DNA of 34,657 nt. It comes from Minisyncoccota bacterium. GTDB taxonomy: Bacteria; Patescibacteriota; Minisyncoccia; Phycocordibacterales; Zambryskibacteraceae. The notes below the pieces were generated by a model. That model worked only from the letters and a program-made list of their open reading frames with translations. It made no database searches and had not been told where the DNA came from. Shown here piece by piece: positions 13,718 to 24,394 of the stretch (the stretch's first letter is position 1; each line of letters starts with the position of its first letter). The stretch covers positions 1 through 34,657 of the forward strand of contig JAGVCW010000012.1 in the NCBI GenBank assembly GCA_020059045.1, given 5' to 3'. The position numbers and the translations under genes are program-made.

Positions 13718-13790
13718 GGGCGGTTAGCTCAGTTGGTAGAGCGCGTCATTGACGTTGACGATGTCAGAGGTTCAAGTCCTCTACCGCCCA
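13718..13790 (+). tRNA. tRNA-Val (GAC)
   Basis: The acceptor GGGCGGT pairs with ACCGCCC (13783-13789). The anticodon stem CGTCA/TGACG encloses TTGACGT, giving GAC. The T-arm is AGAGG-TTCAAGT-CCTCT. The discriminator is A, followed by CA. The tRNA is followed by a long array of hairpins containing further partial copies of its own 3' end. Confidence 0.96.
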
Positions 13791-13792
13791 CA

Positions 13793-13830
13793 ATTAAGTA
13801 AATTTATTTACTTAATCTTGAGGACTTGAA
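13793..13830 (+). repeat. tRNA-Val tail unit 1: hairpin plus inverted T-arm copy
   Basis: ATTAAGTAAAT (13793-13803) pairs with ATTTACTTAAT (13806-13816). It is followed by GAGGACTTGAA (13820-13830), the exact reverse complement of TTCAAGTCCTC in the tRNA T-arm (13771-13781). The whole can fold as one long hairpin that uses the tRNA's T-arm and encloses its 3' end. Confidence 0.85.
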
Positions 13831-13832
13831 AA

Positions 13833-13896
13833 CCTTGAGTATATCGCGCGGAGCATGCGAGCACGATACGAAAGGTGTACAGAGTCTGTAGGACTC
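13833..13896 (+). repeat. Structured module X, copy 1
   Basis: Stem A pairs CCTT (13833-13836) with AAGG (13872-13875), then a symmetric GA/GA internal loop, then GTAT and CG with CGATAC (13864-13869). The apical part contains GGAGCA and GCGAG. A TGTACA linker (13876-13881) is followed by stem B: GAGTC, loop TGTAG, GACTC (13882-13896). Related copies lie at 14093-14155 and, on the minus strand, 24233-24286. Stem sequences differ between copies while pairing is kept. Confidence 0.75.
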
Positions 13897-13897
13897 G

Positions 13898-13915
13898 AGT
13901 CCTCTACCGCCCACA
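13898..13915 (+). repeat. Direct copy of the tRNA-Val 3' end (copy 2)
   Basis: Eighteen bases (AGTCCTCTACCGCCCACA) are identical to 13775-13792, the end of tRNA-Val plus two bases beyond its discriminator. The upstream T-loop differs (CTCG instead of TTCA). The rest of the tRNA is absent. Confidence 0.92.
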
Positions 13916-13920
13916 GGTAA

Positions 13921-13955
13921 ACACACAACATATGTTGTGTGTGTGAGGACTTGAA
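13921..13955 (+). repeat. tRNA-Val tail unit 2: palindrome plus inverted T-arm copy
   Basis: ACACACAACAT (13921-13931) is directly followed by its reverse complement (13932-13942), then again by GAGGACTTGAA (13945-13955). The hairpin is unrelated in sequence to that of unit 1, but the position and the inverted T-arm copy are the same. Confidence 0.85.
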
Positions 13956-14043
13956 GGCACAGCCATGTTTTGTCAGCCAGACAAAACAGGCGAGCCGGGG
14001 TCGAGAAAATTTTGATTTGACGAAATCAAAATTATTCGTGACC
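13956..14043 (+). repeat. Structured module Y, copy 1
   Basis: The 88-base element has two domains. The first pairs GGC and GCC (13956-13964) with GGC and GCC (13989-13996) around a variable hairpin GTTTTGTC/GACAAAAC. The second pairs GGTCGAGAA (13999-14007) with TTCGTGACC (14035-14043), with one G.U and one mismatch, around AATTTTGATTT/AAATCAAAATT. A copy on the minus strand at 23574-23660 keeps the flanks but has different hairpins that still pair. Confidence 0.8.
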
Positions 14044-14046
14044 TAG

Positions 14047-14089
14047 CCTCTACCGCCCACAAAAACCTTTGGTTTTTTGAGGACTTGAA
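14047..14089 (+). repeat. tRNA-Val 3' end copy 3 with hairpin and inverted T-arm copy
   Basis: CCTCTACCGCCCACA (14047-14061) repeats the tRNA end a third time. AAAAACC/GGTTTTT (14061-14067/14071-14077) forms a hairpin and GAGGACTTGAA recurs at 14079-14089. Confidence 0.85.
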
Positions 14090-14092
14090 AAA

Positions 14093-14155
14093 GCTGAATA
14101 TATCGCACGGAGCAAAGCGAGTACGATATGAAGCCTGTACAGCCTCTGTAAGAGG
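14093..14155 (+). repeat. Structured module X, copy 2
   Basis: GCT (14093-14095) pairs with AGC (14132-14134), followed by the same GA/GA internal loop and ATAT/CG against CGATAT. The apex is GGAGCA-AA-GCGAG, then TGTACA (14136-14141), then stem B CCTC, loop TGTAA, GAGG. A further degenerate piece follows (14163-14190): CCTCTAC resembling the tRNA end, then CGAAAGGTGTAC. Confidence 0.72.
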
Positions 14156-14190
14156 AAAGATTCCTCTACAATACGAAAGGTGTACGGCCT

Positions 14191-14212
14191 CTGCCTACCT
14201 GTCGGTAGGCAG
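14191..14212 (+). repeat. Short palindromic repeat (9-bp stem)
   Basis: CTGCCTACC (14191-14199) and GGTAGGCAG (14204-14212) pair around TGTC. On the minus strand it would read LPTGRQ in one frame. From memory, palindromes of this type are dispersed in many uncultured bacterial genomes; I cannot confirm this here. Confidence 0.7.
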
Positions 14213-14253
14213 GTAAGATTAAAGTTTTCACTTTGTATGCAAAACAAATTGTC

Positions 14254-14346
14254 ATGATTATTTTAAGTATTGAAACAAGCTGTGATGACCCCAAACGAAA
14301 TAGCGACTGCAGTACAGTCGATTTCGTACGGGGCGAGAATTGGTAA
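14254..14346 (+). pseudogene. Broken duplicate of the tsaD start, interrupted by a hairpin
   Basis: From the ATG at 14254 the frame reads MIILSIETSCDD, matching the first 12 residues of TsaD (starting at 14377) except the last. It then enters a strong hairpin (14289-14333: CCCC, ACGAAAT and CGACTG pairing with CAGTCG, ATTTCGT and GGGG) and stops at 14344. About 20 bases upstream of the two ATGs are also similar (GCAAAACAAA against GCAAAATAAA). Five coding differences from tsaD in residues 6-11 are synonymous, so this is not a fresh copy. The fragment came from a diverged tsaD allele or from an old duplication that stayed under selection for a time. Confidence 0.8.
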
Positions 14347-14376
14347 TGTTAAGTTTAATGTGCAAAATAAACCATC

Positions 14377-15570
14377 ATGATTATTTTAAGTATAGAAACC
14401 TCTTGTGACGAAACAGCCGTAAGCATTCTAGATGCCCGAGGGTCTGTTACCAATCCTAAATTTAAAGTTTTAGGAAATGCTTTGTATTCTCAAGAAAAAC
14501 TCCATGCTCCATACGGCGGTGTTTACCCAAATTTAGCAAGAAGGGAGCATCAGCAAAATCTCGTACCCTTACTTGTGAAAGCCCTTAGGGACGCGAAGCT
14601 ATTTCGGAAGAGAACTGGAATAAGCAGAAAACAAGAAAATATTCATAAGGTAATTAAAAAAGTTTTGAAAAAGGAAAGCACTCTTTATGAACACTTTTCA
14701 AGCCTCCTCTTTAACGTTGAGAAACCTAAGATCGGTGCGATAGCTGTCACAGTTGGACCGGGGCTTGAGCCAGCTCTTTGGGTGGGTGTAAATTTTGCAA
14801 CAGCGGTCGCGAAGCTTTGGGGGTTACCAGTCATCCCAGTTAACCATATGGAGGGACATATAATGTCAGTTTTGTTAAAGACAGACACCGAAAAAAATAA
14901 AAAAGATAACATTAGAATTAATTACCCAGCCATTTCACTTCTAATTTCTGGCGGCCATACTGAGCTTGTGTACTCGAAGAAACCCTTCGCATACAAAATT
15001 ATAGGGAAAACTAGAGATGATGCACTAGGAGAAGCGTTTGACAAAGTTGCTCGAATGATCGGACTACCCTACCCTGGAGGACCAGGGATTTCTCGTCTAG
15101 CGGAAATAAAAAGGAATAAAGGTTACAAAAAAGAGAAGTGGTCTTTGCCACGACCGATGATTCACTCGAAGGATCTAGACTTCTCTTTCTCGGGACTGAA
15201 AACTTCCATACTTTATAAAACAAAAAACAAAAAACTTAGCACAACTTCTAAAGAAGAAATTTCAAAAGAATTCGAAGATGCTGTGACAGAAGTAATCATA
15301 TCCAAAACTAGAAAAGCTTTAGACAAATTCTCTCCACGTTCACTTGTTGTGGGTGGAGGTGTAATAAATAACACTTATATAAGAGCCGAACTTGGGAATC
15401 TTGTAAATGAATACTCTGGAATAAAGCTCTTCATACCAACCAGAGAACTTTCCACCGACAATAGCACCATGATAGGAATGGCTGGATTTCTACAGATATT
15501 AAATAGTCCCAAAATCTTGAAGAAGAAGAGACGACTAAAGGCACAGGGTCATTTAAGTTTTAAATCTTAG
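14377..15570 (+). CDS. tsaD: tRNA N6-threonylcarbamoyladenosine transferase TsaD
   Basis: TsaD (Kae1/YgjD) transfers threonylcarbamoyl to A37 of tRNAs that read ANN codons, with TsaB and TsaE as usual bacterial partners (not in this window). The 397-residue product starts MIILSIETSCDETA, has metal ligands H157 and H161 in HMEGH, the SGGHTEL and DDALGEAFDKVAR motifs, YPGGPGISRLA, FSFSGLKTS, GGGVINN, and STDNSTMIG near the end. It is about 60 residues longer than the E. coli protein. Much of the excess is a Lys-rich insertion near residues 70-110, after the ARREH segment. A broken copy of the gene start lies 123 bases upstream. The last 11 bases overlap the convergent surface-protein gene. Confidence 0.96.
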   Translation: MIILSIETSCDETAVSILDARGSVTNPKFKVLGNALYSQEKLHAPYGGVYPNLARREHQQNLVPLLVKALRDAKLFRKRTGISRKQENIHKVIKKVLKKESTLYEHFSSLLFNVEKPKIGAIAVTVGPGLEPALWVGVNFATAVAKLWGLPVIPVNHMEGHIMSVLLKTDTEKNKKDNIRINYPAISLLISGGHTELVYSKKPFAYKIIGKTRDDALGEAFDKVARMIGLPYPGGPGISRLAEIKRNKGYKKEKWSLPRPMIHSKDLDFSFSGLKTSILYKTKNKKLSTTSKEEISKEFEDAVTEVIISKTRKALDKFSPRSLVVGGGVINNTYIRAELGNLVNEYSGIKLFIPTRELSTDNSTMIGMAGFLQILNSPKILKKKRRLKAQGHLSFKS

Positions 15571-23573: not shown

Positions 23574-23660
23574 GGTCACGAATAAATTACTCGCCGCCGC
23601 TCATAATTTTTCTCGACCCCGGCTCGCCTTCCCCGCAAGCTTGCGGGACAAGGCTCCGCC
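23574..23660 (-). repeat. Structured module Y, copy 2 (downstream of tRNA-Arg)
   Basis: On the minus strand it starts GGCGGAGCC and continues with a hairpin CCCGC/GCGGG, then GGCGAGCCGGGGTCGAG, a hairpin AATTA/TAATT, and ATTCGTGACC. The flanks are nearly identical to the copy at 13956-14043, but both internal hairpins have different sequences that still pair. The total length is 87 bases, against 88. Confidence 0.8.
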
Positions 23661-23661
23661 C

Positions 23662-23707
23662 GGCACATATATTTAAAACAAAACAATTTGTTTTAAATAT
23701 ATGTGCC
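23662..23707 (-). repeat. 19-bp perfect hairpin that includes the tRNA-Arg 3' end
   Basis: The arms 23689-23707 and 23662-23680 are perfect reverse complements (GGCACATATATTTAAAACA in one orientation) with an 8-base loop. The 5' arm on the transcript contains the last acceptor bases and discriminator of tRNA-Arg, so this hairpin would sequester the tRNA end before processing. No T-run follows. Confidence 0.85.
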
Positions 23708-23775
23708 CCAGGCCGGAATCGAACCGACATCAAATCCTTAGGACGGATCCGTTCTATCCATTGAACTACAGGGGC
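23704..23775 (-). tRNA. tRNA-Arg (CCU)
   Basis: The acceptor GCCCCTG pairs with CTGGGGC, with one T.T mismatch at pair 6-67. The anticodon stem GATCC/GGATT encloses GTCCTAA, giving CCT. The T-arm is GTCGG-TTCGATT-CCGGC. The discriminator is A, followed by CA. A perfect 19-bp hairpin starts inside its 3' end and module Y follows. Confidence 0.93.
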
Positions 23776-24212: not shown

Positions 24213-24235
24213 TTGTGCGGGTAGCGAGAATCGAA
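24213..24235 (-). repeat. Direct copy of the tRNA-Gly 3' end
   Basis: Twenty-three bases are identical to 24321-24343, covering the T-loop, the acceptor 3' strand, the discriminator and four bases beyond. The 108-base offset is filled by a hairpin and module X. Confidence 0.92.
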
Positions 24236-24286
24236 TCTTACAGATTCTGTACACCTTTCGAATTCGCTGTGCTCATACACGAAAGG
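24233..24286 (-). repeat. Structured module X, copy 3 (downstream of tRNA-Gly)
   Basis: On the minus strand stem A pairs CCTTTCG (24286-24280) with CGAAAGG (24260-24254) around an apex with GAGCA-CA-GCGA. TGTACA (24253-24248) follows, then stem B: GAATC, loop TGTAA, GATTC (24247-24233). The linker, the loop and the CGAAAGG word match copy 1, while stem B bases differ in a compensated way (GAGTC/GACTC there). Confidence 0.77.
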
Positions 24287-24288
24287 TC

Positions 24289-24326
24289 TTCGATTTTCCC
24301 ATGCACAATAAAGCAGTTTATTGTGC
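24289..24326 (-). repeat. tRNA-Gly tail hairpin plus inverted T-arm copy
   Basis: GCACAATAAA and TTTATTGTGC form a 10-bp stem (24326-24317/24312-24303) with a 4-base loop. The stem includes tRNA bases 71-73. GGGAAAATCGAA (24300-24289) follows, close to the reverse complement of the tRNA T-arm (GAGAATCGAA). Confidence 0.8.
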
Positions 24327-24394
24327 GGGTAGCGAGAATCGAACTCGCGTCACAACCTTGGGAAGGTCGCATTCTACCACTAAACCATACCCGC
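24324..24394 (-). tRNA. tRNA-Gly (CCC)
   Basis: The acceptor GCGGGTA pairs with TACCCGC. The anticodon stem CGACC/GGTTG encloses TTCCCAA, giving CCC. The T-arm is GCGAG-TTCGATT-CTCGC. The discriminator is A, followed by CA. A hairpin, module X and a copy of the 3' end follow. Confidence 0.95.

Follow-up and report, generated by a model that had tools for sequence, protein, structure and literature searches.

Stacked hairpin modules behind tRNA-Val, with target duplications and tRNA-matched inverted copies, recur at tRNA genes in one order of Paceibacteria

Mitochondrial hairpin elements, comprising the RHE of sponges, the DHE of Allomyces and the GC clusters of yeast, are mobile folded elements whose mechanism is not known (PMC2800124, PMC4478555). 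They are tiny and gene-less, with a fold that is under selection, and the elements described here are alike in these respects; modules X and Y also show the double-hairpin build, being paired hairpins without an open reading frame that are mobile, a likeness for which we claim no homology. Whereas the mitochondrial elements show no target duplication or one of 2 nt, with no retargeted inverted copy of the target reported, the present elements are bacterial, sit mostly at tRNA 3' ends and are accompanied by duplications of about 20–60 nt.

REP and BIME sequences are likewise short, imperfect, intergenic palindromes that apparently fold as single-stranded DNA, and such a hairpin fold is found here too, but our elements have no consistent RAYT partner, and to our knowledge REPs have neither target duplications nor tRNA-matched inverted repeats. 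Integron attC sites are folded single-stranded sites in tandem, and here too a gene now and then lies between units (loci L115 and L185); however, no dedicated integrase is seen, most genomes having a single tyrosine recombinase that is presumably Xer, and the repeat is the end of a host tRNA and specific to its locus. Casposon integration and CRISPR spacer acquisition share with our locus a tRNA 3' end that is targeted and duplicated with each insertion, resulting in arrays, yet the inserts here form a conserved folded family, and Cas1 is missing in 60 of 61 relatives. tRNA-targeting integrative elements duplicate the stretch from the T-loop to the tRNA 3' end, as is found here, but our inserts carry no integrase gene, and one family serves most tRNA species, tmRNA and protein genes. 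Finally, as regards MITEs, a target duplication is seen, and T' and S (defined below) form an inverted pair around module X; since both derive from the target, they are not element termini. The tests made place the elements outside the REP/RAYT, integrase, casposon and retroelement families. In their working they come closest to the mitochondrial double-hairpin elements and GC clusters, and are somewhat REP-like, with the target-matched inverted copy as the distinctive trait. The initial annotation of this DNA knew of no described element with this build, and we likewise found no published description of such repeats in the open-access literature searched.

The array behind tRNA-Val and its counterparts in the same genome

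In the window, by which we mean the whole 34,657-nt stretch of DNA analysed, tRNA-Val is followed by units with modules in the order X, Y, X, and by the remains of a further unit; X and Y also occur behind two other tRNA genes of the window.

13718..13791 (+): tRNA-Val(GAC), the target gene (ARAGORN; Rfam RF00005, 68.8 bits); repeat S is its 3' part, starting at T54 (about 13771)
13772..13793 (+): S copy 1, the 3' end of tRNA-Val itself
13794..13817 (+): unit 1 hairpin, between S and T'
13820..13830 (+): unit 1 T' (GAGGACTTGAA), inverted 3' half of the tRNA-Val T-arm, ending at T54
13829..13897 (+): unit 1 module X, with hairpins P1, P2 and P3 (model R1, 89.7 bits)
13895..13916 (+): S copy 2, the target duplication (88% over 26 nt)
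13922..13945 (+): unit 2 hairpin
13945..13955 (+): unit 2 T' (GAGGACTTGAA)
13956..14043 (+): module Y, two hairpins (single-stranded DNA fold, z -7.2)
14044..14062 (+): S copy 3, degenerate in its 5' part, core CTCTACCGCCCACA exact
14060..14076 (+): unit 3 hairpin
14079..14089 (+): unit 3 T' (GAGGACTTGAA)
14088..14157 (+): unit 3 module X (model R1, 79.4 bits)
14163..14193 (+): fourth unit, decayed, an S remnant joined to a 3' fragment of X
23576..23662 (-): module Y region downstream of tRNA-Arg(CCT) (23703-23775, -), a perfect palindrome lying between the two; outer limits approximate
24232..24290 (-): module X (model R1) downstream of tRNA-Gly(CCC) (24323-24394, -); a copy of the 3' end of that tRNA follows

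The initial annotation had reported three copies of the tRNA-Val 3' end, hairpins, an 11-base inverted T-arm and modules X and Y, and all of these are present as it had placed them. Its degenerate fourth piece at 14163 is indeed derived from S, and can be specified as the decayed beginning of S, CCTCTAC, fused to a 3' fragment of a further X. The hairpins after S copies 1, 2 and 3 (TTAAGTAAATTTATTTACTTAA, CACACAACATATGTTGTGTGTG and AAAACCTTTGGTTTT, respectively) had been taken for unrelated sequence, a view that our comparison does not bear out, as hairpins and inverted T-arm are integral to the unit and tRNA-specific. The strong folding ascribed to the inserts was recovered for the array region as a whole (z -10.4 against shuffled sequence, RNA fold) and, when S, hairpin and T' were folded as single-stranded DNA, for unit 1 (z -6.7) and unit 2 (z -5.1), but unit 3 is weak (z -1.1). 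Within the window, Rfam and ARAGORN matched tRNAs only, and the array yielded just the intact tRNA-Val. An assembly artefact is ruled out by the recurrence of the modules in hundreds of independent assemblies.

Elsewhere in the same genome, X and Y lie behind tRNA-Leu, Ala, Met, Asp, Lys, Ser and others, on the same strand as the tRNA. The copies that flank a module, inverted in front of it and direct behind it, mostly match the adjoining tRNA and not tRNA-Val. Copies of tRNA 3' ends behind other tRNA genes, for which the initial annotation had proposed a search, are found both in this genome and in relatives. An array of S copies behind tRNA-Ser(tga) (L115:600-3900, contig C20 of this genome) has protein genes between its Y and X units, one of which encodes what we take to be a lycopene-cyclase-like membrane protein, the other being a small ORF; a comparable array behind tRNA-Leu (L185) encloses a small gene. 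As for a longer, autonomous version, just two arrays among the loci read have a gene between S copies, and neither gene resembles a transposase. At L114 (contig C7 of this genome), X and a Y fragment lie beside a tRNA-Ser relic, with an S copy that reaches about 25 nt past the tRNA end, and an intact tRNA-Ser lies about 1.5 kb from the relic.

A separate hairpin, element Z (CCCCAAACGAAAT...ATTTCGTACGGGGC), occupies 14289..14334 (+) upstream of tsaD and is flanked by a 51-nt duplication of the tsaD start (14238-14288 and 14361-14411, 80% identical). Z-like hairpins also occur upstream of tRNA-Ile (L260), tRNA-Leu (L068) and tRNA-Arg (L115), and Z may prefer gene starts.

Match of the units to the local tRNA and the fold of module X

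Beside tRNA genes the product is laid out as tRNA with S, hairpin, T', module and S, where T' is the inverted start of S. The canonical unit in relatives reads S, hairpin H1, inverted acceptor strand, hairpin H2, T', module, S. In many cases H1 is an intrinsic terminator bearing A- and T-tracts, and a tract of T5 or longer, like that of an intrinsic terminator, lies between tRNA and T' in 34 of 79 units; the stem of H2 is variable, with the loop AACTGCTT in 25/79 units. Most X copies (97/114) follow a tRNA of the same strand at a distance below 400 nt, a count for which many loci were fetched by a pattern including the start of S, which biases the set towards intact junctions and not towards tRNA association. 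Several of the copies without such a tRNA lie behind a tmRNA-like 3' end or behind tRNA relics.

In 83 of 89 units the end of T' falls exactly on T54, and T' pairs with the local tRNA at 10.26 of 12 positions, compared to 7.84 when tRNAs are exchanged by shuffling. An inverted acceptor strand (6 or all 7 of 7 nt) is found in 48/79 units, against 10.8% in controls. Where tRNA and S copy disagree, the partner of T' is the tRNA in 28 cases, the copy in one and neither in six, indicating that the pairing maintained is that between tRNA and T' and that it is the S copy that decays. A tandem G.A/A.G mismatch is often seen at positions 57-58 of T', replacing two pairs while the helix is kept; this is not expected of pure templated copying, and therefore selection on the fold must also act. 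At L124, L177 and L143 (G223 and G365) there are shortened relatives of X that have an additional conserved hairpin, GYGTACTCRC, between P3 and S, as well as a variant ending in GTACCAGCGACCGTAGG, both being further subfamilies.

Module X was modelled from 24 copies with ends set by hand (alignment A1, model R1). It consists of three hairpins, in which both sides have changed in 17 of 19 pairs and 94.8% of cells are paired. Slid controls reached 25-43% paired, a comparison biased in favour of X in that its structure was read from the same sequences; independently of this, shuffles and the number of pair types were used, and none of 500 shuffles was as high on four of the five measures. The modules are thus kept folded by compensatory changes, and this occurs without a surplus of G-U pairs. 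About 118 distinct X sequences (roughly 1058 cells of stems P1 and P3, leaving out the outermost P3 pair) yielded 6 G-U, 6 A-C and 10 other mismatches, compared to 153 G-U and 8 A-C in 3180 stem cells (acceptor and T) of 265 tRNAs at these loci (Fisher p ~4e-13, for related sequences that are not independent). More G-U is tolerated in P2, where one pair may be non-canonical, and T' with tRNA shows 19 G-U and 14 A-C. Since G-U is tolerated in an RNA helix and not in a DNA helix, X would fold at the DNA level, or else its arms would be equalised by DNA copying. We infer that the folding molecule is single-stranded DNA, for example the lagging strand or a cruciform, although the shortage of G-U could in part stem from recent copying rather than from DNA-level selection.

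Insertion signature, gain and loss, and distribution

At about 60 loci the duplication has a fixed start, at T54 or, in variants and Y, a few bases later, and a variable end, 0 to about 40 nt past the gene, which bears out the initial view of the repeats as duplications of an insertion target. Units have also been gained or lost between relatives: the tRNA-Val locus differs among them, and the prospect raised at the outset that it might be identical in all relatives did not come true, given that G058 and G032 have tRNA-Val without units. In G058 tRNA-Val abuts tsaD, an empty site compared to the window, where the array lies between the two, and two species of one genus differ in the presence of units at tRNA-Val-glmU and at tRNA-Lys.

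Insertions at protein genes are rare and lie at the 3' ends of rplK and topA, in the order S, inverted start of S, module, S. At rplK, X occurs at the 3' end in two genomes of different families (L259, contig C17 of the window's genome, and L137, contig C47 of G398), each time together with one inverted and one direct copy of the end of rplK. Behind topA (L072, contig C15 of the window's genome), Y is accompanied by a duplication of about 75 nt from the 3' end of the coding sequence, the start of which is also present in inverted form. A further type, X2, is found near gene starts, with longer duplications and without T'.

Model R1 detected X in 207 of the 397 genomes sampled from the window's order (Paceibacteria such as Zambryskibacteria and Nomurabacteria), covering 107 of 179 genera; per-genome copy numbers are lower bounds, as up to 12 candidates per genome were scored. 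The same model gave nine positives in a sample of 380 Patescibacteria genomes, all from the window's order, and none in about 363 Patescibacteria outside it. An exact X pattern, searched across 84,980 species, matched Ca. Zambryskibacteria, Nomurabacteria, Kaiserbacteria, Taylorbacteria, Lloydbacteria and other Patescibacteria, and additionally one record labelled Woesebacteria and one labelled Bacteroidales, which we suspect to be mislabelled or misbinned. As far as tested, the element family is confined to one order of Paceibacteria. A viral origin was set aside, one exact X pattern having no match in 2.9 million viral contigs.

Candidate machinery, explanations and meaning

Searches of 61 relatives for Y1_Tnp, RVT_1, Phage_integrase, Cas1 and a TnpB-like zinc domain showed that no single one of these families accounts for all carriers. 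Cas1 occurs solely in G054, where X was not found. Among the X-rich genomes, the TnpB/Cas12f-like zinc domain gave single weak to moderate matches in G040 and G044 only, and an origin as a guide RNA of such a system was rejected; the frames concerned (G040:C10:14057-14272 and G044:C9:6067-6264) are of 636 and 648 aa. G040 (100% complete, at least 11 X copies) lacks Y1_Tnp, RVT_1 and Cas1 and has one tyrosine recombinase, presumably Xer, and the same three families are missing from G033 (96% complete, at least 12 X) and G042 (97%, 8 X). It seems that not every carrier needs Cas1, a reverse transcriptase, an IS200-like transposase or a dedicated integrase, which would leave host replication and repair, or a family beyond those searched, as the candidate. 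No autonomous relative was seen in the loci read.

We lean towards the explanation that the array consists of stacked, small, non-autonomous hairpin elements (X and Y, 60-95 nt) that duplicate their target and whose T' is templated from it. Insertion would start from a break, flap or strand displacement at T54, whereupon a polymerase may re-copy S, giving the duplication while sparing the tRNA. The 3' end would then switch template onto its own strand at the palindrome, giving T', and this inverted copy would stop at T54, where its template runs out, with the module joined in between. Template switching in imperfect inverted repeats equalises their arms, also in highly transcribed DNA (PMC7202029, PMC3820800), and such known quasipalindrome switching could keep T' matched to the tRNA. 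Either this hairpin-templated correction or selection would maintain T', with the spare S copy decaying. Points against stacked elements with a templated T' include the tandem mismatch in T', H2 inside the inverted copy, which a single template switch does not account for, the alternative reading of the G-U shortage as an effect of recent copying, and the X2 units without T'. A bolder and rather doubtful version holds that each element is a self-retargeting, gene-less folded single strand that inserts behind almost any tRNA, re-copies the target, writes an inverted copy of it and thereby re-creates a recognition hairpin specific to the host gene, relying on host replication or repair alone.

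Among the alternatives, X and Y could be structured RNAs made by read-through from the tRNA, either as a tRNA-like unit or as a trailer through which the tRNA would alternate between a folded and a sequestered form. The topology of the unit is that of a tRNA (inverted acceptor, H2, T', module, T, acceptor), with X in place of the T-loop and H2 in place of the D and anticodon arms, and both the maintained pairing with the local tRNA and the RNA fold of the array region are consistent with it. We nevertheless judge it unlikely, considering that P1 and P3 are nearly free of G-U, which is no commoner there than A-C, that terminator-like T tracts often separate tRNA and T', that the S copy needed for a tRNA-like fold decays, and that presence among relatives is erratic. 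DNA-like rather than RNA-like stems also count against a SINE-like retroposition, in which a transcript of X or Y would be reverse transcribed at a nick in the target to yield a long target duplication. That process would suit small, structured, gene-less elements of high copy number and duplications that are long, fixed at one end and variable at the other, but it gives no account of T', and no RVT_1 reverse transcriptase was found in the element-rich, nearly complete genomes G033, G040, G041, G044, G050 and G052; we consider it improbable.

Mobilisation of REP-like sequences by an IS200-like (RAYT) transposase acting on hairpins of single-stranded DNA would fit the folded-DNA signature. The initial annotation had suggested looking for such a transposase or a tyrosine recombinase, and Y1_Tnp genes are indeed common in the order (40/61 relatives), somewhat more so in X carriers (17/24 against 8/20 of the others, by hand count), while the recombinase is mostly single, and neither emerged as a consistent partner. 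The X carriers G033, G038, G040 and G042, some with high copy numbers, have no Y1_Tnp, and the RAYT-like genes whose flanks were read have no X or Y beside them. Additionally, we know of no target duplication in Y1 insertion, and we hold out little prospect for such a transposase as the driver. The least probable explanation, in our view very much so, is an array of attachment sites left by tRNA-targeting tyrosine integrases, the likeness drawn initially. The stretch from the T-loop to the tRNA 3' end is a classical integrase sublocation; however, most relatives have a single Phage_integrase (PF00589) match, presumably Xer, with one tyrosine recombinase each in G040, G041, G044, G046, G047, G050, G052 and G053. 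A fixed attP would not match targets as diverse as tRNA-Val, Gly, Leu, Lys and Ser, tmRNA, rplK and topA, the inverted copies seen here are not made by integrases, and the exact X pattern went unmatched in viral contigs.

If stacked elements with a templated T' are the correct explanation, a large fraction of the tRNA genes in one order of ultra-small bacteria would bear hairpin parasites or adopted hairpins, providing a natural case of palindrome copying at the DNA level at highly transcribed genes and possibly an element that can do without a transposase. Because the units covary strictly with the local tRNA, sequence data suffice to put the mechanism to the test. The family also serves as a lineage marker for Paceibacteria, in which annotation pipelines may take its units for tRNA pseudogenes.
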